A DNA stretch of 64,000 bases from Phaeodactylibacter xiamenensis (GTDB lineage: Bacteria > Bacteroidota > Bacteroidia > Chitinophagales > Saprospiraceae), in NCBI RefSeq assembly GCF_000759025.1, contig NZ_JPOS01000020.1, forward strand, positions 62,001 to 126,000, written 5' to 3'. The notes beneath the pieces were generated by a model. It had not been told where the DNA came from. It saw only the letters and a list, made by a program, of their open reading frames with translations, and did not search any database. Numbering within the stretch: position 1 is the first letter of the stretch; each line of letters begins with the position of its first letter. Made by a program: the position numbers and the translations under genes. This document shows, piece by piece, positions 14,396-42,035 of this stretch.

Positions 14396-17300
14396 ATGGA
14401 AAAAACGAAGTTTACATTCGTTTCTCCATCTCAGCTAGCAGGCGCATTTGCATTCGCGCTGTTGACTTTCCTGGGCCTTCCACAGGCTTTTGCGCAGGAT
14501 TGTCCAACACCGTCGAACGTAGATGTGAGCTATAACTGTGATGGAGTCGTTGTACTGGACTGGGACATTACGGACCCAAGCGGCCTGGTACAATCTTACA
14601 CCGTTGACATCGAGAATGGCAACCAGCCGGTTGTCGACTTTGTCAACATGACTTCCACTGAGCTGACTATTGTTGCAGGTACCCTGACACCAGGCACGAC
14701 CTACAACTACGCAATTACTGCGAACTGTGCAGCTTCTAATGTTTCATCTGCAACTGGCCAAATCGATGGCGCGGACATTCAGAACCGTCAGCCAACGATT
14801 TCTATCACCAACGTGAACAACCCAGTTTGCCCAGGCGACGAGTTCTCCGGCAGCTTTGATGTTACGGTGAATGATGATGGTTGTAGCGCTTCCTACAATA
14901 TCTCTGTAGGCGGGACCACTTTCTTCAACGTGCCAGCGGGCAATACCATAACCTTCGGTGGGCTGAACGCCGCAGTAGGTGGTACAGTCTACACGGTGAA
15001 CCTTTCCTTGGCTTCAGCAGGCGGCTGCCAGTTTAACACAGACCAGACGGGCTGTGTTTCTTCTGTTTCAGCAACTCAGACGCTGACGCCATCCGACAGC
15101 CAGGCACCAGGTATGGACGTGACTGCAGCCGGTGGTGTTGATCTGGGCTCAGGCGCGACGCTTACGTACACTCCGCCAGAGGGCGAGTGCGGCGTACAGC
15201 TGCTTTGGTCTGTGTTCCCATTCGACAACTGCGGTGGGCCATCTGATATTGACTTCACAGCGAGTGTGACCAATGACAACCCTAGCGTATTCCCAACGGC
15301 TTCAGTAACTCAGGATGCAGTAGACGTGGCTTATGCTGTGAATATCTTCGCTGCAGTGGGCACGAACGTTGTTACGCTTAGCGCAACCGATGAGAATGGC
15401 AACAACACGACCCTGACTTTCACTATCGAAGTACTTGACGTACTTGCACCTGAAATTTACGGCCCAGGCAATATCAGCGTGGAAATTCCTGCTTGTCAGG
15501 ATGGCGGCGTTCCGGTAAACTGGACTGTTTCTGCTGTTGACGATTGTGACCTTGACGTAGACCTGGTTATCGATGCTGGAAACACAGATCCTGCTATCAC
15601 AGGTAGCGGTGGTGTACTCGGTGTGGGTAGCTATGACGTAGCTTACACAGCTACTGACGACTACGGCAACAGCTCTAACTACAGCTTTGTAGTAGATGTA
15701 ACTCAGGCTGCCAGCCCTGCTCCAATTGTAGACATTTCTGGCAATGGGCAGTTCTCAGTACCTGCTTGTGCTGATGATGTGTTGGCTACTTTCTCTGGTA
15801 ACATCTATGATTGCGATATTGTGCCAGGTGGTCTAACACTTGGAGATATTCAAATTAATGCAGTTGGTCTGACCGCTGATGCTCAGGCTGATCTCTTCGT
15901 GACTTATGTTGAGGCAGAGGAAGATTTCGCTTACTTTGAGGTAGCGGGTGTGATGACTCCTGGTGATTATTTCGTTGTATTCTCTTACCGCGATGTATCT
16001 GTTGATCATTCTGTATCTGTTGTACAGGATGCCAACCAGCCTGCAGAAATCACAATGCCTGGTAACCTGAGCTTCCTGGAGCCTGCATGTACTGCTGGTG
16101 CTGATTTGAGCTTCCAGGTGCAGATCACAGATGATTGTGACTTTGACCTTTCCGGTGCTACATTCACGCTGAACGGTGCGACTGCTCCAGCAATCGATGC
16201 AGGTGCATCTGATCCGGAAGCAGGTCTGTATGTATGGAACCTGTCTGGTATCCCAGCGGGCTCTTACACATTGGTTGCTACATTTGAAGATAGCAACGGT
16301 GCAGTATCAGAAGGCACTGCTACCTTCACGGTAACAGACCAGCCTGACAACTCTGCTCCAATTATCGTATACCCATCTCAGAATATCAATATTGCACTGG
16401 ACCCATGTGTTGAGAACGCAGTAGCTTCTCAGGTTTTCCAGATCACAGCGATTGACAACTGCGATGGCGATCTTGCCCCGACTGTAACTGTTTCTTCAGG
16501 TACAGGTTCTGTGGCTACAATCCCAGGCGGCTATGTATTCATGGGCGGCCCTGGCGTGCACACAATTACAATTACAGCGACTGATGCAGCTGGCAACAGC
16601 CGCACGGAGTCCTTCGCTATCAACGTAACTCAGGCGCCTGCACCACAGGAGAACCTGGCTTGCAACGATGATATTAACGTTACGCTTGACGACAACTGCT
16701 CACGCGTAATCACTGCGGATATGGTACTGGAAGGCAACTTCGGCTGCTTTGAGGAGTCTGACTTTACGGTTACCATCGTAAACGACGACAACCCTGCGAA
16801 CGGCAATATCCTGGACGGCCACGGCCAGTTCATTTATGAGATTGCACTTGCTGACCAGGCTCAGCCAACGATTGGCTTCACTGGTGATTTTGCGCCAGGC
16901 AATTGGGACCTGATTGTTAACGATCCTGCGATGACTGTTGGCTTCAACGGTGATGTACTTGAGCTTGGTTCTCCTGGCGACCCCGTTACTACCAGTGTAG
17001 CTAATGCAGCTATCGCCATGCCAGAGTCAGGGACTGTATCCTTCGACTGGACGTTCTTCACAAATGAGTTCCCAGGGGGTGCACTGTTTGAGCTGTTTGG
17101 TTACGTAATTGATGCAAACGGTAATATTACTGAGACTATCTTAGCTAGCGATGGTACTGTTGGTACTGTTGGCCCAGATGGTACAGCAGAAGGTTCAGAA
17201 TCTTTCGACCTGAATGCGGGTGACGTACTTGTCTTCATCCTGCAGGTTGATGGCTTATTCCCTCTTGGGGCAGAAGCAACAGTTTCTAACTTCACTTTTG

Positions 17301-20300: not shown

Positions 20301-21826
20301 TTGCGATCGAGCTGATGCCAGTAGACGAGGACGGCGACAACCTGCCGGACCCGGGTGCAGGCATGGCTGAGATCTGGGCGAGCGACTTCATCGCTTCTCC
20401 GATCACTGACTGCTCTGAGCCGATCAAGTACTCTATCAACCGTGTAGGCGAGCCTAACGACCCTGACCAGGCCGGCCTTGTGCTGACTTGCGACGACGAA
20501 GGCACGCTGGTGATCGAGATCTGGGCGTACGACGCAGCTGGCAACAGCGACTTCTGCGAGACTTACATCCTGGTACAGGACAACATGGGCGTATGCGGTG
20601 CAGCAGCACCAATGGCAGCCGGTGCGGTCAATACCGAGGACAACGAGCCGGTAGAAGATGTACAGGTCAGCCTTTCCGGCCAGGCATCTGATGAGATGAC
20701 AACAGAGAACGACGGCGCTTACGTATTCACGAACCTGACAGCAGGCCTTGACTACACGATCACGCCACAGCGCGACGGCGACTACCTCAACGGTGTGTCT
20801 ACGTTCGACCTGGTACTGATCAGCAAGCACATCCTGGGCGTTGGCCCGCTGAGCACGCCATACCAGCGTATCGCAGCGGACGTTAACAACTCTGGCTCTA
20901 TCACAACTCTGGACCTGATCCAGCTGCGCAAGCTGATCCTGTCTATCGATACAGAGTTCTCTAACAACACCAGCTGGCGCTTTGTAGAGGAAGCTTACGT
21001 CTTCCCAGACCCATCTAACCCATGGGCAGAGCAGTTCCCTGAAGTGATCAACATCAACGACCTGCCTGCGACAAGCATCATGGATGCGGACTTCGTAGCC
21101 GTGAAGATTGGTGATGTGAACGGTGATGCGGCAGCAAACAGCTTTGCAGTAGTTGACGAGCGCAGCTACGAAGGCACCTTTGCACTGCAGACAGACGAGC
21201 AGGAGCTGAAGGCGGGCAATGAGTACCGCGTAAGCTTCACAGCTGCTGAGCTGGCACGCATCGAGGGCTACCAGGCGACGCTGACGCTGAGCAACGGCGT
21301 AGAGCTGGTAGACATCGTAAGCGGTGTAGCTACTGAAGACAACTTCGGCCTGTCTTACCTGGGCGAAGGCATGATCACGACAAGCTGGAACGGCGAAGCA
21401 TCTGATGCAGAGCTGTTCACACTGGTATTGCGCGCAAACAGCGACGTGATGCTGAGCGAAGTACTGGGCGTAAGCTCAGCAGTTACGAAGGCAGAAGCTT
21501 ACGGCAAAGACGGCAGCTTCCAGGACGTAGCGATCGAGTTCAGCACCGGTACTGTGGCGGGCGCAGGCTTCGAGCTGTACCAGAACCAGCCGAACCCATT
21601 CAAGGGCGAGACTGTGATCGGCTTCAACCTGCCAGAGGCAGCACAGGTGACGATCACCATCAGCGACGTAACCGGCAAGTTACTGAAACTGTACCGCCAG
21701 GACGGCTCTAAGGGCTACAACCACATCACGGTTAAGTCTTCTGAGCTGGCGGCGACAGGCGTAGTATCTTACACTGTTGAAACTGGTGACTACACAGCAA
21801 CGAAGAAGATGGTAATCATCAAGTAA
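14396..21826 (+). CDS. Giant T9SS surface protein with Ig/HYR-like repeats, dockerin-like and cohesin-like modules
   Basis: 2,476 residues with a signal peptide ending in LPQAFAQ. An Fn3-like domain (about 35-125) is followed by many Ig/HYR-like repeats, recognisable by Cys pairs, DNC motifs and 'TAPxVxCP...' starts. Then come a conserved Cys-rich block (about 1960-2070), a carboxypeptidase-regulatory-like domain (about 2075-2132), a dockerin-like module (about 2130-2240; GVSTFDLVLISKHILG, then DVNNSGSITTLDLIQLRK, ending GDVNGD) and a cohesin-like domain (about 2258-2388). It ends in a type A T9SS sorting domain (ELYQNQPNPF ... TKKMVIIK). It should be exported and anchored at the outer surface. 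Codon choice is strikingly restricted (CTG for Leu, CCA for Pro, GAC, AAC, ATC), especially after about 17300. This suggests very high expression. Confidence 0.9.
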   Translation: MEKTKFTFVSPSQLAGAFAFALLTFLGLPQAFAQDCPTPSNVDVSYNCDGVVVLDWDITDPSGLVQSYTVDIENGNQPVVDFVNMTSTELTIVAGTLTPGTTYNYAITANCAASNVSSATGQIDGADIQNRQPTISITNVNNPVCPGDEFSGSFDVTVNDDGCSASYNISVGGTTFFNVPAGNTITFGGLNAAVGGTVYTVNLSLASAGGCQFNTDQTGCVSSVSATQTLTPSDSQAPGMDVTAAGGVDLGSGATLTYTPPEGECGVQLLWSVFPFDNCGGPSDIDFTASVTNDNPSVFPTASVTQDAVDVAYAVNIFAAVGTNVVTLSATDENGNNTTLTFTIEVLDVLAPEIYGPGNISVEIPACQDGGVPVNWTVSAVDDCDLDVDLVIDAGNTDPAITGSGGVLGVGSYDVAYTATDDYGNSSNYSFVVDVTQAASPAPIVDISGNGQFSVPACADDVLATFSGNIYDCDIVPGGLTLGDIQINAVGLTADAQADLFVTYVEAEEDFAYFEVAGVMTPGDYFVVFSYRDVSVDHSVSVVQDANQPAEITMPGNLSFLEPACTAGADLSFQVQITDDCDFDLSGATFTLNGATAPAIDAGASDPEAGLYVWNLSGIPAGSYTLVATFEDSNGAVSEGTATFTVTDQPDNSAPIIVYPSQNINIALDPCVENAVASQVFQITAIDNCDGDLAPTVTVSSGTGSVATIPGGYVFMGGPGVHTITITATDAAGNSRTESFAINVTQAPAPQENLACNDDINVTLDDNCSRVITADMVLEGNFGCFEESDFTVTIVNDDNPANGNILDGHGQFIYEIALADQAQPTIGFTGDFAPGNWDLIVNDPAMTVGFNGDVLELGSPGDPVTTSVANAAIAMPESGTVSFDWTFFTNEFPGGALFELFGYVIDANGNITETILASDGTVGTVGPDGTAEGSESFDLNAGDVLVFILQVDGLFPLGAEATVSNFTFEPSTQPVAGFEPCWGFVTGEDKTAPVVECPDDTDVATVSVPVQTIDGELTASDPQIELADYSCFLDYLFNIFGPITTPLAGPQYYDLIEFQVSEEDVYTIYLTAPAGWNGGAATAVFQGGFNPDSPCENILTASTADLNSANLGPVGGGINPTIRMTLPLRPYETYTVLVSSVDAEQVGPYTHTIFSDGNGLVGSWNFTQTTLPDWTTQFDTTFSALPSTTEQLVLPLFCNDFGQIYGGDAGSVAQETAFISGTYQWVGAPSATDNCDNNVGITATDSFTASGDCGDVVITRSFTATDDQGLTDECQQQITFRKPTLADVTNPPITVVVECDEDYPALANGNPAPELTGYPFIFTAFGIFDIAPNYCNIGASYEDLPTVDECEGRFKFRREWTVFDWCDPGSTVIIDQLIKVGDYTAPTVTCPSGTPIAYSTSPFSCGASFEVPMPGVSDNCSNVTVYTEIVTTTEEEVINQYGLPTGQFVIDTVVVRTIQPGANRFVSSIPFGDHFFRYVAEDDCGNETELYCPFSVIDQIEPVAVCDDQLNVSIGGGNIVPGQPALARVFASDVDEGSWDNCGDVSIAIFRNNFNPITYTCGTQNSVTGDFVDFFCCDVGVTSDITLVVTDQYGNQNSCWLSVTPEDKINPFCDAPDNVVVDCDDLPYGFDASDAGQLEDLFGMATGADNCGVASVQQVASNADLECGYGSITRIFRVTDVNGLSSTNSCVQVITINEVHNYEIYFPEDAEANCGTPTPDTVEYNELGCDLLAVTSNDEQFSASGDECYKIFRTWKVINWCQYDGESDPYIVGRDEDCNGVPGDGDRIANNGNGFWLLARPNGKIYFDQDTDETPDNNVPGINFCGVSNDYYSFEYDETGYYQYTQIIKVYDDTAPEISFTQADAFCSLDNVNCDANVTYPFSIDEDCTPDDLTIKVFLDPFLSGDLVELTGVVSGSYPDYTITVNDLPIGSHAFEVHVLDGCGNSDLAILPFDIIDCKAPAPFCLNGIAIELMPVDEDGDNLPDPGAGMAEIWASDFIASPITDCSEPIKYSINRVGEPNDPDQAGLVLTCDDEGTLVIEIWAYDAAGNSDFCETYILVQDNMGVCGAAAPMAAGAVNTEDNEPVEDVQVSLSGQASDEMTTENDGAYVFTNLTAGLDYTITPQRDGDYLNGVSTFDLVLISKHILGVGPLSTPYQRIAADVNNSGSITTLDLIQLRKLILSIDTEFSNNTSWRFVEEAYVFPDPSNPWAEQFPEVININDLPATSIMDADFVAVKIGDVNGDAAANSFAVVDERSYEGTFALQTDEQELKAGNEYRVSFTAAELARIEGYQATLTLSNGVELVDIVSGVATEDNFGLSYLGEGMITTSWNGEASDAELFTLVLRANSDVMLSEVLGVSSAVTKAEAYGKDGSFQDVAIEFSTGTVAGAGFELYQNQPNPFKGETVIGFNLPEAAQVTITISDVTGKLLKLYRQDGSKGYNHITVKSSELAATGVVSYTVETGDYTATKKMVIIK

Positions 21827-21849
21827 CCATCTCTTTGAGATATAGCCCG

Positions 21850-22041: not shown

Positions 22042-22836
22042 ATGACAAAAACAATACCTCCTGTAAGGACCCTCCTTGCGGTTCCTTTCCTCTTACTCCT
22101 GCCATTCTGTGTGTCTGCACAAGTAGCTGTTTATGCTACCAGCCACACGGTAACTCCTGATGAAGAATTTACTGTTGAAATAAAAGTGCAGAACTTCGAT
22201 TCAGTCGTAGGTTGTCAGTTCAGTGTTAACTGGGACACCAAGCTGTTTAGAATCAAAGGAGATAGTGCTGTGCTGGGCGCAGAACTGACAAGTTCTATAG
22301 AAAACTTCAGCTATGCCCAGGTCGATAGTGGCTATCTGGGCTTTTTGTGGTTCGACCCGGCTATTCAGCCCGTCTCACTTGAGGATGATGCCACCTTGTT
22401 TTCCATAGAGCTTGAAGTGGTTGAAGAAGAATCAACTATTGATTCTATTCGTTTTTCCGGATTTCCAGTGATCGTGGAATTTGCCAATGCAGAGGAAGAG
22501 CAGCTCGAAGTCGACTTCATCTCAGGGGCAATAAGCATCGAAGGTATTTCGGACTTGCTGGACCGGAAAGGAAGAGAAACCGTAGCAATTACCTGTGCTC
22601 CTAATCCTTTTGAAAAGCAAACTCAGGTTAGCCTGGACTTTAAGCAGCGCGTAGATCGCGGTACTCTGCGTATCATCAATGCACAGGGGCAGGTGGTCAT
22701 GCAGCGCGAGCAGTCCTTTGACCCGGGCTTACACACGCTTGATCTGGACCGAACAGTTTTTGGCCAGTCAGGCAATTACTACCTTGAAATTAAGTCAACC
22801 GATTTTTTAGTTACCTATAAACTGATTGTCCTCTAG
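22042..22836 (+). CDS. Secreted single-cohesin protein with T9SS sorting domain
   Basis: 264 residues with a signal peptide ending in CVSAQ. Residues about 25-165 match the cohesin pattern: VTPDEEFTVEIKVQNFD, then GCQFSVNWD, then YLGFLWFDPA, DDATLFSIELEV and a closing SGAISI strand. From about 178 a type A T9SS sorting domain follows (APNPFEKQTQVSLDF, INAQGQVVM, ending TYKLIVL). This is the smallest possible surface cohesin: one domain plus an anchor. It precedes the multi-cohesin scaffold by 63 bases on the same strand, and a T-rich run with weak pairing lies between, so the two may be cotranscribed. The cohesin call is by pattern; binding to the dockerin-like modules nearby is inference. 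Confidence 0.82.
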   Translation: MTKTIPPVRTLLAVPFLLLLPFCVSAQVAVYATSHTVTPDEEFTVEIKVQNFDSVVGCQFSVNWDTKLFRIKGDSAVLGAELTSSIENFSYAQVDSGYLGFLWFDPAIQPVSLEDDATLFSIELEVVEEESTIDSIRFSGFPVIVEFANAEEEQLEVDFISGAISIEGISDLLDRKGRETVAITCAPNPFEKQTQVSLDFKQRVDRGTLRIINAQGQVVMQREQSFDPGLHTLDLDRTVFGQSGNYYLEIKSTDFLVTYKLIVL

Positions 22837-22899: not shown

Positions 22900-24429
22900 A
22901 TGGACAAAGTATTTACCAGCCTTCTGGCGGGCTTATTATTCTGTGTAGTGTCAATGTCTGCACAGCAGCCTACCTTTACAATCTCACCAACCTCTAATGA
23001 TGTACAACCGGATGATATTTTTGAAGTAGACATTACCGTGTCAGACTTCACAAACATCCTGAGCATGCAGTACGGCGTTACCTGGGACTCTACAATTATT
23101 GAGTTCCAACAGGTGAAAAATGTCAACTCCACAATCCCGGGATTTACCCTGGCTGCGGCATTTAGTACACCAAACCCCGGTGGCTCCAGCAACGTACCTG
23201 CTAATGGTATGGGCGTTTCCTGGTTCCATCCTTCTTTTATAACCCTTGACCTTCCCGATGGGACGGTTTTGTTTACCCTCGAATTTCAGGCAGTGGGCTG
23301 TGGTACTTCAGATATACAGTTTTCCGGCCCACCGACCCCAGGTATTGAATTACTTAACGGGAGCTTTACAAATGTTAGCCTCAACCCCGAAAATGCGACC
23401 GTCACCGTTAGCGGCGGCAACTGCGGCACTGTTACACCTGAAACAACCTTTAGCATTAATAACATAACGTTAGACGTTGGCGAAACAGGTTGCCTGGAAG
23501 TAGAAGTACAGGATTTCGAAAATATCACAGATGTTGCATTCAGCATTACCTACAACGCAAGCTTACTGAATTTTAGCTCGGTCGGTGGCTTTAGCCTGGC
23601 AGGTTTGGATGCAAGTGATTTTACTACCACTACTCCCGGAGTGATTACCCTTGACTGGTCCAACGCCACTGGTATTTCCCTGATCGATGGAGCAGCCATA
23701 TTCGAATTATGCTTCACTGGTGTACAGGCGGGAACAGCAAACCTTGCTTTTTCTGACAACCCCGTAGCTATTGCTGTTACAAATGGAGATGGGGAAAATG
23801 TTGATTTCATAGGACAAAACGGCGCGGTTGTGGTGCAGGACGTTCAGGTGACACTGGATTTGACCAACACCACAGTCAATGTAGGCCAGACAGGTTGCGT
23901 GGATGTCCGCGTATCTGACTTCGAAAACATCGGTGCCCTGCAACTAACCATTAATTATAATGATGCACGGCTGGACTTCGGCTCAATCACCGGAATCAAT
24001 CTTCCGGGCTTGCAGGCATCAGACTTCAATACGTCTACGCCTGGTGTGATCACACTAAGTTGGTCAAACGGAACGGGCGTAACAGAGCCTGATGGCACGA
24101 CAATATTTGAACTCTGCTTTACCGGCACCGCTGCCGGCACTGCCAGCCTATCCTTTGGTGGCGCTTCAAGTGCCCAAACGGCAAACGGTACCGCTATCGA
24201 CTTCAATGGACAGGGAGGGACGATCAACGTTAACTCGGTAAATACGGACCTTACCCTGACAGTCGAGGACGCGACCGTCAACCAGGGCGACAACGTATGC
24301 CTTGCACTGGAGATCGATAACTTTGAGGACCTCATTGGAATGTCCTTTACCGTGAGCTACAACGCATCACAGTTGAGCTATACCGGCGTGAGCAACCTGA
24401 ACACTTCCGGGCTTCAGTGTGGCAGGTAA
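22900..24429 (+). CDS. Multi-cohesin scaffold, N-terminal fragment (frameshifted)
   Basis: 509 codons, with a signal peptide (MDKVFTSLLAGLLFCVVSMSAQ), three complete cohesin-like domains (22965-23420, 23435-23830, 23845-24235) and the first part of a fourth. Typical elements are GETGCLEVEVQDFENI, FSITYNASLL, TPGVITLDWSN and IFELCFTG. Reading then shifts: relative to the next two repeat copies, five bases are missing just after 24402, so the frame runs NTSGLQCGR and stops at 24429. The original protein clearly continues in the frame that gives the ORF from 24419. The full gene is therefore 22900-31075, about 2,725 residues. It is either truly broken, switched off by a repairable lesion, or an assembly error in a repeat. 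Confidence 0.88.
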   Translation: MDKVFTSLLAGLLFCVVSMSAQQPTFTISPTSNDVQPDDIFEVDITVSDFTNILSMQYGVTWDSTIIEFQQVKNVNSTIPGFTLAAAFSTPNPGGSSNVPANGMGVSWFHPSFITLDLPDGTVLFTLEFQAVGCGTSDIQFSGPPTPGIELLNGSFTNVSLNPENATVTVSGGNCGTVTPETTFSINNITLDVGETGCLEVEVQDFENITDVAFSITYNASLLNFSSVGGFSLAGLDASDFTTTTPGVITLDWSNATGISLIDGAAIFELCFTGVQAGTANLAFSDNPVAIAVTNGDGENVDFIGQNGAVVVQDVQVTLDLTNTTVNVGQTGCVDVRVSDFENIGALQLTINYNDARLDFGSITGINLPGLQASDFNTSTPGVITLSWSNGTGVTEPDGTTIFELCFTGTAAGTASLSFGGASSAQTANGTAIDFNGQGGTINVNSVNTDLTLTVEDATVNQGDNVCLALEIDNFEDLIGMSFTVSYNASQLSYTGVSNLNTSGLQCGR

Positions 24430-25546
24430 TATTGCGAACCCAAGCCCTGGTTTTGTCACCATCAACTGGTTCGAGAACAGCCTGACGCCCATCACCCTGC
24501 CTAATGGAAGTGTGTTACTGGAAGTATGCTTTGACGCGATTGGCTCTGGTACAACTGATGTGGAGATTACCTCAGATGTAGCGGCGATCGAGTTTTCCGA
24601 TATCAATGAGAATGTGATCCCGCTGGTTTCAAACGATGGCACCGTGACGATCAACGGCGGGCCGCCTCCAACCGGTGACCTCACCCTGACAGTCGAGGAC
24701 GCGACCGTCAACCAGGGCGACAACGTATGCCTTGCACTGGAGATCGATAACTTTGAGGATCTCATTGGGATGTCCTTCACCGTGAGCTACAACGCATCAC
24801 AGTTGAGCTATACCGGCGTGAGCAACCTGAACAGCAACCTTCCGGGCTTCAGTGTGGCAGGTAATATTGCGAACCCAAGCCCTGGTTTTGTCACCATCAA
24901 CTGGTTCGAGAACAGCCTGACGCCCATCACCCTGCCCAATGGAAGTGTGTTGCTGGAAGTATGCTTTGACGCGATTGGCTCTGGTACAACTGATGTGGAG
25001 ATTACTTCAGATGTAGCGGCGATCGAGTTTTCCGATATCAATGAGAATGTGATCCCGCTGGTTTCAAACGATGGCACCGTGACGATCAACGGTGGGCCGC
25101 CTCCAACCGGTGACCTCACCCTGACAGTCGAGGACGCGACCGTCAACCAGGGCGACAACGTATGCCTTGCACTGGAGATCGATAACTTTGAGGATCTCAT
25201 TGGGATGTCCTTCACCGTGAGCTACAACGCATCACAGCTGAGCTATACCGGCGTGAGCAACCTGAACAGCAACCTTCCGGGCTTCAGTGTGGCAGGTAAT
25301 ATTGCGAACCCAAGCCCTGGTTTTGTCACCATCAACTGGTTCGAGAACAGCCTGACGCCCATCACCCTGCCCAATGGCAGTGTGTTGCTGGAAGTATGCT
25401 TTGACGCGATTGGCTCTGGTACAACTGATGTGGAGATTACTTCAGATGTAGCGGCGATCGAGTTTTCCGATATCAATGAGAATGTGATCCCGCTGGTTTC
25501 AAACGATGGCACCGTGACGATCAACGGCGGGGCGCCTCCAACCGGC
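24247..25546 (+). repeat. Three tandem, nearly identical cohesin-coding repeats (435 bp unit)
   Basis: Units begin at 24247, 24677 and 25112, each at the codons for Asp-Leu-Thr-Leu-Thr-Val-Glu-Asp. The second and third are 435 bases (145 codons) and differ by only a few third-position changes. The first is 430 bases because of the 5-base deletion. A fourth unit from 25547 has the same start but has diverged. Such identity implies recent duplication or gene conversion. Confidence 0.95.
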
Positions 25547-28500
25547 GACCTCACCCTGACAGTTGGTAATGCTTCTGCCAATCAAGGCCAAACAGTATGC
25601 GTGCCTGTTACAGTAGACAACTTCACAGATCTGGTCGGTATGTCCTTCACCGTAAGCTATGATGAGTCACTGCTGACCTACACGAATGTCCAAAACCTGA
25701 CTGGTAACCTTCCAGGCTTTAGCGTAGCTGGTAATATTGGCAACCCCGGGCCCGGGCAAGTCACGGTCAATTGGTTTGAGAATAGCCTCACGCCTACTTC
25801 ATTGCCAAATGGGACAGTGCTCTTCGAAGTGTGCTTTGAAGCATTGGGCGGTGGTTCAGCTGCAGTGGATATCACTTCTGAAGTCGCTGCCATTGAGTTT
25901 TCAGATGCCGATGAAAATGTAATTCCTCCGGTTATTGACAACGGGACCATTACTATTTCAGGTGACCCTGCACCAACGGGGCTATTCCTGACAATTGACG
26001 ATCAAACCGTTGACCCCGGCGATCAGTTTTGTACTTCCGTGAAGGCGTTCAATTTTGAAGATGTGGTCGGTATGTCCTTTACGATCAGTTACAACCCCAA
26101 TGTACTGGCGTTGGACGATATTACCAGCCTCACTTCTAATTTGCCCGGCTTCACAGAAGCGGCCAACATAGGTACGCCAAGTGCCGGGTTTATCACAGTC
26201 AACTGGTTTGAGAACAGCCTGACTCCCACGGACCTTCCGGACGGGGAAGTACTTTTTGATATTTGCTTCACCGCAACCGGTAGCGGCATTACTTCTGATA
26301 TTGAGTTTACTTCAGATGTAGCCGCTATCGAGTTCTCGGATGCGAACGAAGATATTATTCCTTTTGGCAGTGACCCTGGTACCATCACCTTTACGGGTGT
26401 AACAACGGACCTGACGCTCACCGCAGGTAGCATTGATGTAGGGCCTGCTGAGTCTTTCTGCGTTCCGGTTACGGTCCAGAATTTCGAGGACATCGTCGGT
26501 ATGTCTTTCACACTCAATTATGATGAGACGCACTTGTCTTTTGATCAGGTCACTAACCTGACCACCAATCTGACTGGTTTTACGACTGCCGGCAACATCG
26601 GTAATCCAAGCGCTGGCTTCATTACCGTCAACTGGTTTGAGAATAGCTTGATCCCCACTTCCCTCCCCGACAACGAAGTACTCTTTGAGGTTTGCTTCAC
26701 AGCACTTGGAGTAGACGGGTCGTGTTCGGACCTGGAATTCACCTCGGATGTTGCAGCTATTGAGTTTTCTGACGCTGACGAGAATGTCATTCCTGCTTTC
26801 TTCGAAGATGGCACCGTTTGCATCGAGGATGGTGTGCCAGGACAAGTGCAGGTTGAAGTTGGAGACGCCTCCGTAGATCTTGATGCCGCCGTTTGTGTCC
26901 CGGTTTCAGTGGATGCCTTTACGGATATTACAGATTTTGGCTTCACACTGGAGTATGATGCAAACGAGCTGCAGTTCGATAACCTCAATGCCATTACCTC
27001 CATGCTGCCTAACTTCACAGCAGCCAATATCAACACGTCAACACCTGGTGTCATTTCAATATCCTGGAGTGGTGCTGCTGCTACATTAGCCAATGGCACT
27101 GTACTCTTCGATTTGTGCTTCACGGCAATTGGCACAGAAGATACTTGCTCAGACGTCGTCATAACAGGCTCGGCCGAGCCTATCAACTTTACCAGCAGTA
27201 CGCTGGGTAGCCTCAGCTTTAGTGGGGAAGAGGGCACGATTTGTATCAACTCTGCCTTTGATGGTTTCCGGCTTTCTATCCCGGATCAGACCGTACAGCC
27301 CGGCGATCAGGTATGCGTGCCGGTCAACGTGCTGAATTTCCTGGATGTGGTTGGTTTTGCCTTTACGATCAACTACGATCAAACCCAGCTGAGTTTCCAA
27401 AACATAAGCAACCTTAACCCCTCAATTCCGGATTTCTCACTGGCGGGCAACTTCGGTACGCCCACCCAAATCGGAGCAGGCAATATCTCGGTGAACTGGT
27501 TTAGCCAGTCTATCACACCGGTCAACCTGCCAAATGGCGCGGCACTGTTTGAAATCTGTTTCACCGCTATTGGCGATGACGGCGATATGTCCGACATTAC
27601 ATTCTCCAGTAGCGTGACCCCCATTGAGATATCAGACAGCAACGGCGATGTCATCCCATTCAACAGCCTGCCTGGTACGATTACGATATCTGCCGTGCAA
27701 CCTCCAAGTATTGCACAGGTGAATATTACTGATGTAGACTGTTTCGGAGAGAACACAGGTGCCATTGCGCTGACCGTTAATGGTGGTACAGGCGGCCCCT
27801 ACAGCTACAATTGGAATAACAACGCCACAACAGCTACAATTAACAACCTTGCTGCCGGTAATTACACAGTTACTGTTACCGATATGGGCAGCGGAGGCTT
27901 GACAACAACTGCTACCTACACGGTAGATGGTCCATCCAGCGCGGTTTCCTTGAGCGGCGGTGTTACCGCACCCACTTGTTTAAATGGAACTAATGGTGCG
28001 ATTAACCTGAATATTTCCGGTGGCAACCCGGGCTACACCATCTCATGGGATAGCGGCATTCAATCCGGGCAGACCAATCCAAGTAACCTTCCGGGCGGCA
28101 CCTACTGTGTTACCGTTACCGATGAGAATGGCTGTACTGCTGAAAATTGCTACAACGTGCCTAACGGCACAGGTCAGGGCGGCACCATAAACTCAACTGT
28201 GGAGGACGAGAGCTGTGCCGGCGAAAATGATGGCTCTATTGCACTTTCTGTCAGTGGTGCGGTAGGCACAGCTAACTACTTCTGGAGCACGGCACCTGGT
28301 GTTCCGGGGGCTTCAACCCTGAACAACCTCTCTCCCGGCACTTACTCCGTAACGGTACTAGATGACGCGAGCTGCCAGAGTACAGCCAGCTTTCAGATAG
28401 ACGACGCCAGCCCTATCAACTTGCTTGAAGGAGTAACCGATGTAAGCTGCGCAGGAGAAGCAACAGGTGTGATTAACCTGGCTGTTTCCGGCGGCAACGG

Positions 28501-31075: not shown

Positions 31076-31140
31076 TAAGATATACGGAGCAGGTGGCTTC
31101 CTGCCCCTGCTCCATTCTTCAACCCTCAACCGATTTGACG

Positions 31141-32067
31141 ATGAAAAGTAAATTTCTACTCCTCCTTTTTTGCTGCCTGGCGACCTGGCAGTTGGCAACG
31201 GCTCAGGATGAAGCCATTTTCGGGCATTACAACCTGACGCCGGTTTTGATCAACCCCAGTGCAGTAGGTTTCGACAATTCCTACCAGCTGCAGCTGAACG
31301 CCCGGGCACAGTGGTCGGGTTTTTCAGATGCCCCTACCACCTATGCAGCGCAGTACAATGGTCCGCTGGGAGATAACTTTGGCCTGGGTGTAGGCGTCCT
31401 AACCGAGTCTGCTGCGCAATTGCAGCGCCTGCGTGCACACCTGAACTATGCCTTCCGGTTTGATATCAGCGATAATATCAAACTGGCAGCTGGATTCCAG
31501 GCAGAATACCAGCAAATGACGCTTGACAACAGCGTTATGACCAACAACTTTGTTGATTTTAACGATCAGCTGGTACAAGACTTTATGAATGGCGAAGGCG
31601 AGTTCGACGCCGCCTTAGGGTTCTTCAGCTCGTTTGGTGAAAACACACGGGTAGGGCTCTCTTTCACTAATCTGGTCCGGTCCCGCATTTCTCAGGGCAC
31701 AGACGAGTCTATTCTGGAGTATTACACCTTCTTTGCCAGCCACAGGATGGAGGTGGAAGATCTGGATTTCTCCTTTGAGCCATCTGTTATGCTGCGGAAC
31801 GTTCGGGACGTGCCTTCCCAAATTGATATCAATCTGATGGCCCGGTTCATGGACAATCAGCTGACAACAGGTCTGTCTTACCGTTCGCTAGGTGCATTGG
31901 GTATTCTTCTGGGCACTCAGCTATCTATGGGGGAGACCAGCAACATTCAGATTTACTACAGCTACGACGTCTTCTTTCAGCAGTTTCAGAGCTACAATAA
32001 CGGCTCCCACGAAATCAGCCTGATCCTCGGTTTTGAGCGGGATAACAAGAAGCGCCGCCGTTACTAA
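31141..32067 (+). CDS. PorP/SprF-family outer-membrane protein
   Basis: 308 residues from the ATG at 31141, chosen because the signal peptide (MKSKFLLLLFCCLATWQLATAQ) starts there; the upstream in-frame start at 31093 adds 16 unsupported residues. The mature N-terminus shows the family hallmark FGHYNLTPVLINPSAVG, and the rest alternates amphipathic strands ending in LILGFERDNKKRRRY, consistent with a beta-barrel. In this family each member typically works with a partner that carries a type B T9SS C-terminus, attaching it to the surface (the SprB/SprF model). The partner is the scaffold encoded 65 bases upstream, so the two are probably one operon. Confidence 0.9.
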   Translation: MKSKFLLLLFCCLATWQLATAQDEAIFGHYNLTPVLINPSAVGFDNSYQLQLNARAQWSGFSDAPTTYAAQYNGPLGDNFGLGVGVLTESAAQLQRLRAHLNYAFRFDISDNIKLAAGFQAEYQQMTLDNSVMTNNFVDFNDQLVQDFMNGEGEFDAALGFFSSFGENTRVGLSFTNLVRSRISQGTDESILEYYTFFASHRMEVEDLDFSFEPSVMLRNVRDVPSQIDINLMARFMDNQLTTGLSYRSLGALGILLGTQLSMGETSNIQIYYSYDVFFQQFQSYNNGSHEISLILGFERDNKKRRRY

Positions 32068-34800: not shown

Positions 34801-34836
34801 AAAGTATTTCAGTATCACTCATAAACTACATCAAAA

Positions 34837-37800
34837 ATGAAACACTTATTAAAAAGCAACCAACATTCGGGCTGGCCACGCGCCACATACGCCCGAATAC
34901 TGCAAACCATCGGTATGTTGGCTTTTACCTTATTCACAGGCCCGGCTTTGTACGCTCAGTGTGACCTGGCCTGCAACGGAGGCAACCCCAACTTCCCCTT
35001 AAACATCCCGGTTAATGGCGATTGCAATGTCGAGCTTGCCCCGGAGGATGTGCTAGAAGTTCCGATCATCTGCCCCGGAGATAAAATCCTCACCATACGG
35101 GATACGATGAACAGCATCATCGTGTCTGGTACCAACCTCGTCCTATTTGACCCGGCGCCCTACGAAGGGCAGGTGCTGTCGGTAACGGTAACCGATGCCA
35201 CAACCGGAATTTTCTGCAACAGCTTCATACGTGCAGTAGACATCAGCCCCCCGGTAATTAGCTGTGTAAACGATACCATCAGTTGTATTGCGGATACTTC
35301 GGCGGTGGTCCTCGGTGCACCTGCCGTGAGCGATAACTGCTCAGACGATATTTCCCTGTCTTACTTCGACAACTTCACCAACTTTACCTGTGCTAACGAC
35401 AACAAAGCAATACTGGAACGGGTCTGGAGTGCTGCCGACGAACAGGGCAACACCTCTTCCTGCTCCCAGTTTATCCTGCTGGAGCGGCCAGACCTCAATA
35501 CGGATATTGAATTCCCACTGGATACTCTGCTCAGTTGCGAGGTGGGGGACCCAACCCTGAATATGACCGGGCAGCCGGAACTGTTTGGTATCATCATTGA
35601 GAACACCAATGAGTGCGACCTCAATGTGACCTTCAATGACGACACCCTCAACCTTTGCGGTAATATCGAATACCAGATACAGCGTACCTGGACGGTGACC
35701 GAGTCCTGTTCAGGCACTATGGCCACCGATCTGCAGCTAATAACAGTGGTGGATACCGTGGCGCCGGACATTACCTGTCCCGGGCCCATCACCGTATCCA
35801 CAAATACAGGCGCTTGCTGGGCTACGGTTACCCTCCCGCCGCCTACGGTAGTGGATAACTGCGACCCTGATGCTACCTTCTTTGTCAGTACCTCCTTCGG
35901 TGCTGTAGGCGTAGGGCCACATAATTTTGTGCCGGTAGGTACCCACACGATTCAGTACTCTTCCATCGATTTTTGTGGCAATTCCCAGAGTTGCACCACT
36001 ACACTGAATGTGGTAGACCAGGAACCGCCCACAGCGGTATGCGAAGAAACCACCGTTGTCAGCGTGTCCAACAACGGACAGGGGACGGTATTCGCCGCTA
36101 CCTTTAACGACGGGAGCAATGACAACTGCGCGCAGCAGCTTTTCTTCAAAGCCCGGCGTATGACGACCGGAAGCTGTAACGGGCTCAATGGTGATGATTC
36201 GAACATACCAGGCTATCAGGAATGGTTTGATGATAATGTCAGCTTCTGTTGTGAGGAGATTGACTCCACTGATATCAGAGTCATTCTGCGGGTCTACGAA
36301 ATTGACCCTGGTATTGGCCCTGTTGAGCCCACCCGGGAGCTACCTGGTGGTGACCTCTTTGGGCATTTTACAGAGTGCATGGTCAATGTGGAAGTACAGG
36401 ATAAGATCGCTCCGGTGGTCGTCTGCCCGCAAAATCAGACGATAGACTGTACCGACGACTACAGTGACCTGAGCATTTTTGGGAACGCTACGGTCATGGA
36501 CAACTGCTCTGCCGAGACGACTCTGGAAGAAACCGTTGATGTGGATAATTGCGGAGAGGGGACAATCACCCGGACCTTCTCCGCTGTGGACCCTTCCGGT
36601 AATATAGGAGGCTGTATTCAAACCATACAAGTGGTGAATCAAAATCCACTCACCCTGGGCCTTATCGATTTCCCGGATGATTACACCATCACCATTTGCG
36701 GTGCGCCTACTGACCCGGACGACCTGCCGCCCGGTTTTGATGAGCCTGTGGTTATGGACCCTGGTTGTTCAATGATTGGAATCAACCATACGGATGAGTT
36801 CTACGATGTGTCCTTCCCGGCCTGCTACAAAATACTTAGGGAGTGGGTAGTGCTGGACTGGTGTCAGTACGATCCGGAAAATCCATCAGCTGGGGGGCGC
36901 TTCTCAGACGTGCAGGTTATTAAAGTGGAGGATCTTAATCCTCCGGTTATGGTTTGCCCGGATGATGTGACTGTCGCGATGGGCTCCATGTGCGGGCAGG
37001 GCCCGGTGGTGCTTCCTGATGTGACTGCAGATGATTGCAGTACCAATATTCTTATTACCAATGACTCCCCCTATGCAGATGTGGGTGGCGCGAATGGCAG
37101 CGGCATTTACCCGGAGGGCACAACCGTTGTAAATTTCTATGCTAACGACCGCTGTGGCAATGTATCGACCTGCTCCGTGGAAGTAACGGTGGAAGATCAG
37201 ACCGCCCCACAGCCCGTCTGTATTGTCGGTCTGTCCATCAATCTGGCTATGATGAATGGAGAGCCTATGGCGATGATCAACGCTGGTGCCTTTGATGGCA
37301 GTACCATAGACAATTGTACCCCCGCCAATGAAATCGACCTTACCATCCGCCGCGCAGGCACCGGGCAGCCTACCACACCACAGCTGACGTTCACCTGCGA
37401 AGATGTGGGCAATCAGATGATTGAATTCTGGGCAGAGGATGCTTCCGGCAACAGTGCGCATTGCCTCACGGTCATTGCGGTACAAGATAACAACGGCGTA
37501 TGCCCGCAGGCCGCCAGCGGTATGATTGCAGGGGAAGTCACTACGGAGTCAGGACAGTATGTGGAAGGGGTCATGGTAGAAGTCATGAGCAGCGACCCGA
37601 TGATGGCATACACCACTAACGATGGTTTCTTCGAGCTGCTGGGCGTGCCCTTTGGCGGTAGCTACACGGTCCGCCCCGAGCGGAATGCTGACCCTCTGAA
37701 TGGCGTTTCCACACTAGACCTGATGTTTATCAGCCGTCATATACTGGGTGTGCAGCCTTTGAATACGCCCTACAAAATGATTGCTGCGGATGTTAACCGT

Positions 37801-38781
37801 TCCGGTTCCATTTCCACACTGGATATCATTGCCCTGCGCAAAATGATCCTGGGCCTGGAAAGCGAGCTGCCCAACGGCAACACCTCCTGGCGGTTTGTAG
37901 ATGCCAACCATATCTTCCTAAACCCGAACAACCCCTTCGCCACCCCGATTCCCGAAGTGGTCAATATCAATGGTTTTGACCAGGACCATATGGATGCCAA
38001 CTTCGTAGCGATTAAGGTAGGCGATGTAGACCTTTCGGCTGCACCCAACGACCTTAGCGGAGTTGAAGAACGTGACCCGGAAGGCAGCATGATGGTCCAT
38101 ATACCGGATGTGAGCGTCAACGAAGGGCAGGAATTTACCATTCCATTCACCACCACGGGGCTACATGCTGTACTGGGCTATCAGTTTACTCTGCGCTTCA
38201 ATACCGAAGCCCTAGAGTACATGGAGCTCGTGGCTGGCCCGGTTCCCGGTATGTCAGGGTCCAATTTCAACCTGCAGAAAACGAACGACGGCTGGATCAC
38301 CACAAGCTGGAACCAAACCAGTACCCTTCCTGGGGAAGGGCAGTCAGAACTCTTCGCGATTACCTTCCGCGCCCGGCAGCCCATTGAGTCGCTGGAAGAG
38401 CTGGTCAGCTTCACGAGCGTGCCGACTTCAAAGGAAGCCTACGATATGGAAGGCAATATTATGGATGTGGGGCTCAACTTTGGTGAAGCCATTTCCTCCT
38501 CAGGCAGTGTCCGGGTGGAAGGCTATGAATTGTACCAAAACCGCCCCAACCCCTTCAGCACCAAAACGGTGATTGGCTTCAGGTTGCCGATTGCAGGTGA
38601 AGCAAAAGTGACGGTATACGATATGGCAGGCAAGGTACTCTTTCATCAGGAAGGCTATTACGATGCCGGGGCTCACGAGCTCATCATCAGAGGCACCGAA
38701 CTGGGGGCCTCAGGGTTACTTTACTATCAGTTGCAAACCGCTGACTATGCCGCTACCAGGAAAATGATTCTTATGAATTAA
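34837..38781 (+). CDS. T9SS surface protein with HYR-like repeats, dockerin-like and cohesin-like modules
   Basis: 1,314 residues. A long N-region signal peptide ends near GPALYAQ. Residues about 45-880 are HYR/Ig-like repeats (VAPDITCPGPITVS, PPVMVCPDDVTVA, DNCS motifs). The conserved tail shared with the proteins at 14396 and 39363 follows: a Cys block ending VQDNNGVCP, a carboxypeptidase-regulatory-like domain (about 895-950), a dockerin-like module (about 951-1068; GVSTLDLMFISRHILG, DVNRSGSISTLDIIALRK) and a cohesin-like domain (about 1085-1224; IPDVSVNEGQEFTIPFTT). It ends with a type A T9SS sorting domain (ELYQNRPNPFSTKTVIGF ... ATRKMILMN). Exported and surface-anchored. Codon use is ordinary, unlike its 2,476-aa relative. 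Confidence 0.9.
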   Translation: MKHLLKSNQHSGWPRATYARILQTIGMLAFTLFTGPALYAQCDLACNGGNPNFPLNIPVNGDCNVELAPEDVLEVPIICPGDKILTIRDTMNSIIVSGTNLVLFDPAPYEGQVLSVTVTDATTGIFCNSFIRAVDISPPVISCVNDTISCIADTSAVVLGAPAVSDNCSDDISLSYFDNFTNFTCANDNKAILERVWSAADEQGNTSSCSQFILLERPDLNTDIEFPLDTLLSCEVGDPTLNMTGQPELFGIIIENTNECDLNVTFNDDTLNLCGNIEYQIQRTWTVTESCSGTMATDLQLITVVDTVAPDITCPGPITVSTNTGACWATVTLPPPTVVDNCDPDATFFVSTSFGAVGVGPHNFVPVGTHTIQYSSIDFCGNSQSCTTTLNVVDQEPPTAVCEETTVVSVSNNGQGTVFAATFNDGSNDNCAQQLFFKARRMTTGSCNGLNGDDSNIPGYQEWFDDNVSFCCEEIDSTDIRVILRVYEIDPGIGPVEPTRELPGGDLFGHFTECMVNVEVQDKIAPVVVCPQNQTIDCTDDYSDLSIFGNATVMDNCSAETTLEETVDVDNCGEGTITRTFSAVDPSGNIGGCIQTIQVVNQNPLTLGLIDFPDDYTITICGAPTDPDDLPPGFDEPVVMDPGCSMIGINHTDEFYDVSFPACYKILREWVVLDWCQYDPENPSAGGRFSDVQVIKVEDLNPPVMVCPDDVTVAMGSMCGQGPVVLPDVTADDCSTNILITNDSPYADVGGANGSGIYPEGTTVVNFYANDRCGNVSTCSVEVTVEDQTAPQPVCIVGLSINLAMMNGEPMAMINAGAFDGSTIDNCTPANEIDLTIRRAGTGQPTTPQLTFTCEDVGNQMIEFWAEDASGNSAHCLTVIAVQDNNGVCPQAASGMIAGEVTTESGQYVEGVMVEVMSSDPMMAYTTNDGFFELLGVPFGGSYTVRPERNADPLNGVSTLDLMFISRHILGVQPLNTPYKMIAADVNRSGSISTLDIIALRKMILGLESELPNGNTSWRFVDANHIFLNPNNPFATPIPEVVNINGFDQDHMDANFVAIKVGDVDLSAAPNDLSGVEERDPEGSMMVHIPDVSVNEGQEFTIPFTTTGLHAVLGYQFTLRFNTEALEYMELVAGPVPGMSGSNFNLQKTNDGWITTSWNQTSTLPGEGQSELFAITFRARQPIESLEELVSFTSVPTSKEAYDMEGNIMDVGLNFGEAISSSGSVRVEGYELYQNRPNPFSTKTVIGFRLPIAGEAKVTVYDMAGKVLFHQEGYYDAGAHELIIRGTELGASGLLYYQLQTADYAATRKMILMN

Positions 38782-39362: not shown

Positions 39363-42035
39363 ATGAAACTTAAAAACCGAACCCTGTTTTTTTTGTGCGT
39401 ACTTCTTTCCTGGGGGCACTCCATGTTTGCACTACCTGATACCCATTCCTCCGACGATCCCATCGCTCCTACTGCAATTTGCGATGACGAGGTTAACGTA
39501 TCCCTGACGGGGAATGGGGAGGCTATTGTTTTCGCCGGCACTTTTGATGAGGGTAGCAACGATAACGTTTGCTTTGCCGGTGTGAAGGTCCGGCGTATGG
39601 GGCAGAGTTATGCCGCTTTCGGCCCCTTCGTTACTTTTGATTGTGCCGATATAGGGCAAACAGTTATGGTGGAATTGCTGGCCATCGACTGCGCTGGCAA
39701 TTCCAACAGCTGTTGGTCCGCAGTAACGGTGGAGGATAAACTGACCCCAAGCCTGCATTGCCCGCCTACACAATCTGTAGCCTGCCATCAGTCGGCGGAT
39801 TGGGATTACGTCGGAACGCCTAATGCCTTTGACAATTGCGGTGTTGCCAATCTGGTATTCAACGATCAGGAAAGCACAAATTCCTGTGGTTCCGGTCAGA
39901 TCGTCCGCATTTGGACCGCAACGGACAACTACGGTAATACCAGCACTTGTACACAGACGATTTATCTCTACGATAATACCCCAATTGAAGTCCACTTCCC
40001 ACCCGATTACGTTACCTATGATTGCACTACAGTAGACGACCTGGCACCGGAAAACCTTCCCGCGCCCTTTGCCCGTCCGGAAATCCTATACGAAGATTGC
40101 GAGCTGATCGCTACCAACTACGAGGATTGGGTCTTTACCGCTGCTTCCGAATCCTGTGTTAAAATCCTCCGCGAATGGCGGGTAATTGATTGGTGTACCT
40201 ACGAATACGGCGGCAGCACCGGGATCTGGAGCGAAACTCAAATCCTGAAAATCCAGGATACACTTCCACCGGTTTTTACCTGCCCGGACGATCTGCTTGT
40301 TCCCACCTCTTTTACAACTTGCACCGCGAGCTTTACATTGCCCCAGCCAACAGACATTCAGGACTGCCTGCCGGGCGTGGAGGTGAGTGCATTTGGTGAC
40401 CTTGGCAGCGGCTTCCAGTATTCCGGCGTGCCCGTTGGCGTTTATGAAATGAAGTACGTACTGAAGGACGGTTGCAACAACACCAGCAGTTGCGAAATCA
40501 CTGTTACCGTAGAGGACGGCACCGCACCCACTCCGGTCTGCCTCGAAGGGGTGTCCATAACCCTGATGCAGGGCGGGATGAATGAACTTTCTGCATCCGC
40601 CATCGAAATAGGCAGCAGCTATGACAACTGTACTGATTACGAAAACCTCGAACTGCGCCTTGGCTTCGAGCCTGGCCCGGGGCAAACCACACCACCTGCA
40701 ACCGATGCTCTGACCTTTACCTGCGACAACCTCGGTATGAATGTGATTGCTCTCTGGGTGGGCGATAAATCAGGGAACTGGGGCTATTGCCTGACGAGCG
40801 CTGTGGTGCAGGACAACGTCGGCGTTTGCGATCCTGATACCACTTCTACTGATCCAATGGCGGCAATCGCCGGGCATGTTTATGATTTTCAGGGCGACAA
40901 AATACCGGATACAGAAGTACGGCTGAATGATCTGGATATGGCAATGACGGATATCCTGGGCGATTATCGGTTTAGCGGAATGCCCATGGGCGGCAGTTAC
41001 GAAATCACGGCTCAAAAATCGGATGACCCAAGAGCAGGCATTACTACCGGCGATTTGCTGGCCATCGCCCGTTACCTGATGGGCGTAGACACCATCACCA
41101 GCCCTTACCAACTGGCCGCTGCAGATGTGGACCAGTCCGGAACCCTGGATTCAGACGATATTATGATGCTCCACTTCATCCTGCTGGGGGTTCAGCCCGA
41201 TCTGGCTGAAGGCTTAGGGTGGCGGTTCATCCCGGAGTCCTTTGTTTTTCCCAATGATACTTTGGTGACGGTGGGCTATCCTGAAGCCATCCTGATTGAT
41301 ACCCTTGGGGCAGACTTCATGAATGGGCACTTCGTCGGCATCAAGCTGGGGGATGTCAATGGCAGCTCGATGGAGGATACGTCTTCCACATTCCAATCCC
41401 TGGAGAACCGGAGCATTAAAACCGCTGACATCGTCATTCGGGACGAAGTGCTTCAGCCGGGTCAGGAATACCAGCTGTCAGTTTCCATTAGCGCCCATCT
41501 GACTGGGGGAGTATTACAGCTTTCGCATCCGGATTTGGAAGTGATTGGCGCGGAAGCCGCTTCCGTTGAGGCTGTATTCCTTCACGCTGCTCCCGATGGT
41601 TCCACCACACTAAGCTGGTTGGGAGATGCCGGGCAAGGACAGCCGGCTTTCACGCTTAGTGTCAGGGCAAAGCAAACGGTCCCGGTAAGCCAGGCTTTAT
41701 CGTTGTCTGCCCAAAGCCGCGCCATGAAAAATGCGGAAGACTACGGGCTTGCTCTGGGTTTTGGAGCACCCGCTTTCGACACACAGGTTAAGGTGCAGCC
41801 TAACCCCTTCCGGGAAACATTATTGCTGCAGTATACACTGCCCGCCTCAGAAGAAGTAAAACTTCAAATCTGGAATGCGAAAGGTCAAGTCGTACTGACA
41901 CAATTCCGGCCGGGCTTCAGAGGTGTCAACCAATGGAACCTCCCCGCTTACCAGCTGCAGGTACCCGGCACCTACTTCTACCGGTTGTCTTCAGAAAGCC
42001 TGCAGCATCAGGGGCGTTTGGTCCGGATGCCGTAG
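39363..42035 (+). CDS. T9SS surface protein, smaller paralogue with dockerin-like and cohesin-like modules
   Basis: 890 residues with a signal peptide (MKLKNRTLFFLCVLLSWGHS region). Residues about 35-490 are HYR/Ig-like repeats (APTAICDDEVNVSLTG, LHCPPTQSVACH, DNCGVANLVF). Then come a carboxypeptidase-regulatory-like domain (about 500-556), a dockerin-like module (about 556-670; GITTGDLLAIARYLMG, DVDQSGTLDSDDIMMLHF), a weaker cohesin-like domain (about 683-806) and a type A sorting domain (VQPNPFRETLLLQYTL ... LQHQGRLVRMP). It is built like the C-terminal halves of the proteins at 14396 and 34837, so the three are paralogues with different numbers of repeats. It is likely exported and exposed at the cell surface. 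Confidence 0.88.
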   Translation: MKLKNRTLFFLCVLLSWGHSMFALPDTHSSDDPIAPTAICDDEVNVSLTGNGEAIVFAGTFDEGSNDNVCFAGVKVRRMGQSYAAFGPFVTFDCADIGQTVMVELLAIDCAGNSNSCWSAVTVEDKLTPSLHCPPTQSVACHQSADWDYVGTPNAFDNCGVANLVFNDQESTNSCGSGQIVRIWTATDNYGNTSTCTQTIYLYDNTPIEVHFPPDYVTYDCTTVDDLAPENLPAPFARPEILYEDCELIATNYEDWVFTAASESCVKILREWRVIDWCTYEYGGSTGIWSETQILKIQDTLPPVFTCPDDLLVPTSFTTCTASFTLPQPTDIQDCLPGVEVSAFGDLGSGFQYSGVPVGVYEMKYVLKDGCNNTSSCEITVTVEDGTAPTPVCLEGVSITLMQGGMNELSASAIEIGSSYDNCTDYENLELRLGFEPGPGQTTPPATDALTFTCDNLGMNVIALWVGDKSGNWGYCLTSAVVQDNVGVCDPDTTSTDPMAAIAGHVYDFQGDKIPDTEVRLNDLDMAMTDILGDYRFSGMPMGGSYEITAQKSDDPRAGITTGDLLAIARYLMGVDTITSPYQLAAADVDQSGTLDSDDIMMLHFILLGVQPDLAEGLGWRFIPESFVFPNDTLVTVGYPEAILIDTLGADFMNGHFVGIKLGDVNGSSMEDTSSTFQSLENRSIKTADIVIRDEVLQPGQEYQLSVSISAHLTGGVLQLSHPDLEVIGAEAASVEAVFLHAAPDGSTTLSWLGDAGQGQPAFTLSVRAKQTVPVSQALSLSAQSRAMKNAEDYGLALGFGAPAFDTQVKVQPNPFRETLLLQYTLPASEEVKLQIWNAKGQVVLTQFRPGFRGVNQWNLPAYQLQVPGTYFYRLSSESLQHQGRLVRMP

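Follow-up and report, generated by a model that had tools for sequence, protein, structure and literature searches.

Cohesin and dockerin modules at a T9SS-associated locus of a probable Saprospirales bacterium: composite units and a polycohesin-SprB scaffold

What are cohesins and dockerins for when they lie together in a locus rich in T9SS sorting domains? The pairing of these two modules is known above all from the assembly of enzyme complexes. The window analysed here is a stretch of 64,000 nucleotides (G000:C20:62001-126000) from a genome of 7.87 Mb in 164 contigs, probably that of a Phaeodactylibacter-like member of the Saprospirales. A preliminary description had read it as encoding a scaffold of 11 cohesins, a separate one-cohesin protein and large HYR proteins whose dockerins serve as free plugs for the scaffold. 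Our analysis points to a two-tier, T9SS-exported arrangement, to which we assign a probability of about 0.5: HYR composite units with the dockerin engaged in cis, and a PorP-anchored scaffold that would recruit a different set of proteins carrying free dockerins. The features concerned are collected in Table 1.

Table 1. Features of the cohesin-dockerin locus, in window coordinates (CPDR, CarboxypepD_reg-like)
Feature	Content	Position	Strand	Basis
P0007, 915 aa	delta-60/DUF5122 propeller; terminal free CPDR-dockerin-extension unit (4531-5058)	4528..7275	-	profiles
P0001, 2476 aa	HYR/Ig-like repeats, composite CPDR-dockerin-extension-cohesin module, T9SS type A tail	14396..21826	+	profiles
Composite module of P0001	without sorting tail	20615..21547	+	profile/alignment
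P0002, 264 aa	one cohesin (~22138-22539) and T9SS type A tail	22042..22836	+	profiles
P0003	cohesins 1-3 and first part of cohesin 4; frame stops at break	22900..24429	+	profiles
Frame break	5-bp deletion and frame change within cohesin 4	24404..24429	+	repeat spacing
P0004	remainder of cohesin 4, cohesins 5-11 (to ~27700), SprB repeats, type B CHU_C (30812-31060)	24419..31075	+	profiles
P0008	PorP/SprF family outer-membrane partner	31093..32067	+	profiles
P0005, 1314 aa	HYR repeats, composite module, T9SS type A tail	34837..38781	+	profiles
Composite module of P0005	dockerin ~37681-37872, cohesin ~38080-38487; AlphaFold2-folded region	37525..38487	+	profiles, model
P0006, 890 aa	HYR repeats, composite module (40866-41768), T9SS type A tail	39363..42035	+	profiles, alignment

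Domains were assigned with cut-offs of 24.1 bits for the Pfam cohesin family (PF00963), 22.9 bits for Dockerin_1 (PF00404) and 23 bits for the NCBIfam T9SS type A tail (TIGR04183). Cohesins were found in P0002, P0003 and P0004 (E-values 3e-12, 2e-20 and 3.3e-59), and P0002, which ends in a type A tail, is the separate one-cohesin protein that had been described. Dockerin_1 scored 26.1, 27.1 and 23.5 bits in P0001, P0005 and P0006, bearing out the claim of dockerin modules on three large proteins, all of which also matched HYR. P0004 contains SprB in 13 stretches and a CHU_C domain (3.5e-23), and P0008 matched PorP_SprF (6.7e-47). Type A tails exceeded the cut-off in P0001, P0002, P0005 and P0006, as did a type B domain in P0004; signal peptides were judged by eye. 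Every family that the preliminary description had named (Cohesin, Dockerin_1, HYR, SprB, the type A tail and CHU_C) was thus matched within the locus. Its fourth dockerin protein, P0007, scored 11.0 bits with Dockerin_1, below the cut-off, but was recovered at 6.6e-23 with a dockerin profile built without P0007. Neither a cohesin nor a T9SS tail was found in P0007 with the Pfam and NCBIfam profiles.

Profiles built from the locus proteins matched solved cohesins and dockerins (best E-values 1.1e-6 and 3.7e-7), and the resemblance therefore reflects homology and not chance. The fold of the P0005 module agreed, all 50 listed Foldseek matches being titled cohesins, cohesin-dockerin complexes or scaffoldins; the list for the P0005 model with its sorting tail also included antibody chains and PorU. 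The scaffold cohesins were assigned by profile, and the cohesin of the P0005 module by fold as well. Among the fold matches were 2jh2, 2w1n and 2xdh, solved non-cellulosomal cohesins of Clostridium perfringens glycosidases and Archaeoglobus fulgidus. In both of these organisms the two modules also occur on one protein.

The composite architecture was delimited by searching the source genome with a profile of four modules from the window. The order CPDR, dockerin, extension, cohesin, T9SS tail was found in 15 proteins, including P0001, P0005 and P0006; the part from CPDR to cohesin is a module of about 320 residues, and its extension carries SWRF and GDVNG motifs. The cohesin directly 3' of the dockerin in P0005 scored 32.1 bits against the Pfam cut-off of 24.1, and the corresponding segments of P0001 and P0006, the latter belonging to the most divergent of the three modules, were identified by alignment only, without a Pfam report. 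The three proteins are thus dockerin carriers as described, but the cohesin that follows each dockerin had been missed. We know of no example of this complete order, from CPDR to T9SS tail, from C. perfringens or A. fulgidus. A short form that ends straight after the extension was present in six proteins of the source genome (P0007, L025:5269-6534, L035, L033, L015 and L039). Dockerin places were listed for 20 of the 23 scored matches, 15 being composite and five short; two further proteins (L034 and L043), in which the dockerin unit is incomplete and some 250 residues follow, were left unclassified. Complete composites made up 130 of 141 dockerin-bearing frames among fetched loci, but these loci were picked for matching, so this is not a frequency and the 15 of 20 in the source genome is the fairer share. 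Among the best 80 of at least 565 relatives, the top matches with a name to the composite module were MAGs under the label Phaeodactylibacter (64, 52 and 49% identity), and most of the remaining 77 loci go under Saprospiraceae or another Bacteroidota name.

Is the dockerin of a composite free to bind elsewhere? AlphaFold2 modelled P0005 residues 897-1314, including the tail, from 83 sequences with a pLDDT of 92.8 and a pTM of 0.74, the one weak stretch lying at the sorting-tail linker. Without the tail, the module reached a pLDDT of 95.7 and a pTM of 0.90, with zero segments below pLDDT 50. By our estimate, two halves of about 176 and 135 residues that moved freely would reach a pTM of no more than about 0.6. 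The prediction is therefore of a cohesin in a fixed position against the dockerin unit, with the P0005 module behaving as one rigid unit. The distance from D167 to cohesin position 187 is 20-22 residues in 206 of 237 modules, and an arginine in this linker is kept in 191 of 237. Because the composite is predicted as one rigid unit, engagement of the dockerin in cis is more likely than a free plug, and the dockerins of the HYR proteins are probably occupied by their own cohesin and not available to the scaffold. These HYR/Ig-rich proteins would then carry, ahead of the type A tail, a dockerin built into the fold, and the outcome may be a calcium-stabilised stalk or latch.

Two nearly identical paralogues of P0001 are encoded at full length in the genome (L028:1361-8764 and L026:1994-9376), and contig ends cut three further near-identical copies (L027, L029 and L030). 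The full-length paralogues are mostly 88-100% identical per 100-column block, and central blocks vary sharply, down to 39-53%, a mosaic of the kind that might arise as from gene conversion.

The cohesin array of the scaffold was examined at the level of its repeats, which start at 22972, 23443, 23842, 24244, 24674, 25109, 25544, 25976, 26405, 26840 and 27260. Repeat spacing falls from 435 to 430 bp at about 24404, corresponding to a 5-bp deletion within cohesin 4 that splits the frame, so P0003 and P0004 were rejected as one intact gene. Eleven units can be counted as had been claimed, but they are divided between two frames. At the DNA level, identity among the repeats around units 4-6 is 96-99%. 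In six uncut relative loci (L126, L128, L129, L130, L131 and L133) the scaffold is a single frame of 1964-2349 aa, in which 4-8 cohesins were found, and two contigs of the same genus (L124 and L125) start within the array, indicating that it is hard to assemble. The break may be an assembly error, a lesion of this strain or repeat-mediated variation, and the count of 11 is soft.

Gene order was compared in 20 relative loci that were fetched because they matched. A polycohesin-SprB gene is followed by a PorP gene in 12 of these, and in two more (L127 and L132) the contig ends inside the scaffold. A one-cohesin gene lies upstream of the scaffold in eight loci (L126-L133, from seven genera). The earlier pairing of SprB-like repeats with a PorP/SprF partner is thereby upheld, with the order conserved across genera. 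According to two reports (PMC9143113, PMC12618676), type B cargo binds or needs PorP/SprF-like partners, and the export route and anchor of the scaffold follow this known rule. The pairs of SprB with SprF, or of a type B CTD with a PorP-like protein, described there share SprB repeats, the type B domain and an adjacent PorP/SprF gene, all of which are present at the locus; what differs here is the cohesins in the N-terminal part of the P0003/P0004 scaffold. We suggest that this SprB-type protein with its free cohesins, together with P0008 and its one-cohesin companion P0002, would constitute a display scaffold anchored in the outer membrane and presumably exposed at the cell surface.

The gap between P0008 and P0005 (32068-34836) contains a non-coding element of about 105 bp (window 32473-32577) with two hairpins, the second terminator-like before a T run (fold z -4.75). 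In the same gap it is 83-93% identical in G001, G005, G006 and G019 and 100% identical in G004; full-length matches occur in eight of 39 genomes searched and matches to the terminator half in others, and both-side changes were seen in only two of 37 pairs. Rfam gave zero matches in the window at the gathering threshold, the sub-threshold match in the gap being PyrR (28.3 versus 54 bits). The element looks like a small RNA. Also near the locus are a protein with a GH113 glycoside hydrolase domain (8807-11083, minus strand), without a reported dockerin or cohesin, and, just downstream of P0006 (42135-46212, plus strand), a protein with the effector-associated domain EAD11 and, after it, a ClpB-like AAA protein.

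The distribution of the modules bears on whether the dockerins of P0001, P0005 and P0006 might instead plug in trans into the polycohesin scaffold and so form a coat of HYR proteins. The tail-less dockerin unit was found in 32 of 149 sampled genomes of the order, comprising 26 of the 27 listed family genomes and six others, and cohesin in 34, including all 32; no genome had the dockerin only, and two (G033 and G116) had cohesin only. G010 and G011 are family genomes with neither. In some genomes, absence was judged from only the 23 or 27 top candidates. A Fisher test of co-occurrence gave 1.5e-30 for the 149 genomes, and 6.9e-9 for 122 genomes outside the family, a group to which unlisted genomes without matches are assumed to belong. 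Several genomes have at least 23 dockerin units, 23 being the most that were scored in any one genome. A count of 34 of 39 genomes positive for the composite was discarded, since the query had included the T9SS tail and weak matches may be tails. Outside the family, both composite and free forms are present: six of 10 dockerin places run directly into a cohesin, three are free and C-terminal, and one could not be assigned. With fusion in six of 10 places, co-occurrence mainly reflects joining in one frame and relatedness, and we rejected it as independent proof of pairing in trans. The plug reading retains the shared locus and the HYR or other composite gene that follows PorP in six of the 20 fetched loci (L125, L126, L128, where a contig end cuts it, L130, L133 and L134); against it stand the predicted rigid unit of dockerin and own cohesin and a co-occurrence that is largely accounted for by fusion and relatedness. 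We regard it as unlikely.

The integration of the dockerin into its module was also evident from mean-field couplings, computed from 237 modules, of which 232 had fewer than 20% gaps and 230 were unique rows (effective number 204). Couplings connect the extension with the CPDR sheet (V13-A162 and T48-V125) and the valine of GDVNG with the dockerin core (I69-V168, V61-V168 and I101-V168), so that CPDR, dockerin and extension seem to form a single, integrated fold, in contrast to the dockerin of cellulosomes, which stands alone. The strongest pair between dockerin and cohesin, R105-N263, ranked 23rd with a value of 1.39 against a maximum of 1.15 in 20 random re-pairings; it rests on few residue combinations (R/N in 133 and Q/Y in 9 of 230) with kinship ignored. 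Dockerin-cohesin pairs account for two of the top 50 couplings, below their share of all pairs. Judged by type I complexes, the face that binds the dockerin would include the conserved positions G218, Q220, W262-N263 and E304-Y306 of the cohesin. Among the 237 modules, the ligands of dockerin loop 2 are canonical (D89 and D100 in all 237, N91 in 209, S93 in 197) and loop 1 is irregular (D54 in 130, N54 in 81, D56 in 129, D65 in all 237). A structural stalk that involves no cohesin-dockerin recognition, in which EF-hand and beta-sandwich units are kept for stability before the sorting tail, would account for the integrated dockerin, the non-canonical loop 1 and the weak dockerin-cohesin couplings. 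It fits poorly with the conserved loop 2 ligands and with the existence of free dockerin units without a cohesin, one kind of which adjoins polycohesin genes, and we consider it quite improbable.

In the preferred two-tier reading, these free units belong to the second tier, together with the scaffold. Besides P0007, five more proteins of the genome end in a free C-terminal dockerin and lack a T9SS tail. The cargo preceding the terminal unit includes the delta-60 propeller of P0007, a sortilin/BNR propeller (L035, with a start that is lipoprotein-like as judged by eye) and a redoxin (L033); the unit is also carried by a P-domain protein (L246) of another family. Contig C3 has a pair of neighbouring genes (L039:3205-7730), the first for a polycohesin and the second for a protein of about 200 aa with a signal peptide, CPDR and dockerin. 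The same neighbour pair is found in G003, G004 and G019 (L304, L306 and L309) and is absent in G005, making four of five loci; loci of the C3 kind were chosen by judgement from length and domain order, and comprise L039 and four of 10 fetched loci. This pair is the best genomic evidence for a partnership in trans, and the tail-less C-terminal dockerins, P0007 among them, are the best candidates for docking in trans on free cohesins. We know of no route by which dockerin proteins without a tail would cross the outer membrane.

Related gene arrangements were also recorded. L018:2199-2822 in the source genome is a frame of 208 residues with a lipoprotein-like start and a single C-terminal cohesin, and matches from other genomes include cohesin frames of similar size. 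Directly downstream of a giant HYR composite gene lie one or two genes for free dockerins, in the source genome at L025:5269-6534 (minus strand) and in G004 at L310:3597-6180 (minus strand).

Comparison with cellulosomes was made at the level of domains and cargo. The scaffoldins of Clostridia and their relatives share with the locus the cohesin fold, the EF repeats of the dockerin and tandem cohesins on a non-catalytic scaffold; the locus differs in T9SS export, in dockerins embedded with their own cohesin and in their cargo. No carbohydrate-active family scored above the Pfam cut-off in the nine dockerin proteins scanned, namely P0001, P0005, P0006, P0007 and five other free-dockerin proteins of the genome; 12 further composite proteins are encoded outside the window. 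A cellulosome reading was rejected because the dockerin proteins of the window gave no such family above the cut-off. The earlier statement that the dockerins are on HYR proteins and not on enzymes holds for P0001, P0005 and P0006, but P0007 is a DUF5122/delta-60 propeller.

A close counterpart is in the Cloacimonadota, where Ca. Stygibacter is reported to have a scaffoldin-like protein with tandem cohesins and a T9SS-type CTD, and dockerin-bearing enzymes (PMC8542988). Common to both are a tandem-cohesin scaffold with a surface-attachment CTD and proteins with C-terminal dockerins; that report places dockerins on hydrolases and peptidases and CBMs on the scaffold, whereas the present locus has HYR composites together with SprB repeats and a gene for PorP/SprF. 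Dockerins and cohesins of Bacteroidetes MAGs were interpreted as cellulosome parts in another study (PMC8547425), and HycP of Clostridium cellulolyticum is a published case of HYR repeats next to a cellulosome (PMC3723904). Among the matches listed from the literature searched, with most subscription papers outside coverage, there was no published description of this Saprospirales cohesin-dockerin system.

Two readings would let the composites bind one another. In the first, successive composites would be joined head to tail by domain swap, dockerin to cohesin, giving HYR fibres or a lattice; both domains do lie on one polypeptide in 15 proteins of the genome, and members in other families have cohesins on both sides of the dockerin, but the short, conserved linker favours closure in cis, and, with a single-chain prediction blind to closed versus swapped forms, we find this polymer very doubtful. 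Just as doubtful is a latch under calcium control that would remain shut in cis while the T9SS exports the protein, then open at the surface and swap partners with neighbours and the PorP-anchored polycohesin scaffold. Many HYR proteins, along with dockerin cargoes that have no tail, would in this way self-assemble into a surface lattice, non-cellulosomal and typical of the whole family.

In the two-tier reading, which we prefer, the composite units would stiffen or latch the HYR proteins in cis and the scaffold would recruit tail-less cargo, possibly with a role in a coat or in adhesion. That cohesin and dockerin are often neighbours within a single protein points to a surface layer of structural kind and not to a digestive machine. 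The fused module raises the question of whether the cohesin-dockerin pair acts here as an intramolecular latch or as a joint between proteins, and the C3 polycohesin with its neighbouring minimal dockerin offers a clean pair for biochemistry. The same modules that are known from cellulosomes appear to make up a family-wide, apparently structural surface system in Gram-negative bacteria, tied to the SprB/PorP branch of T9SS.
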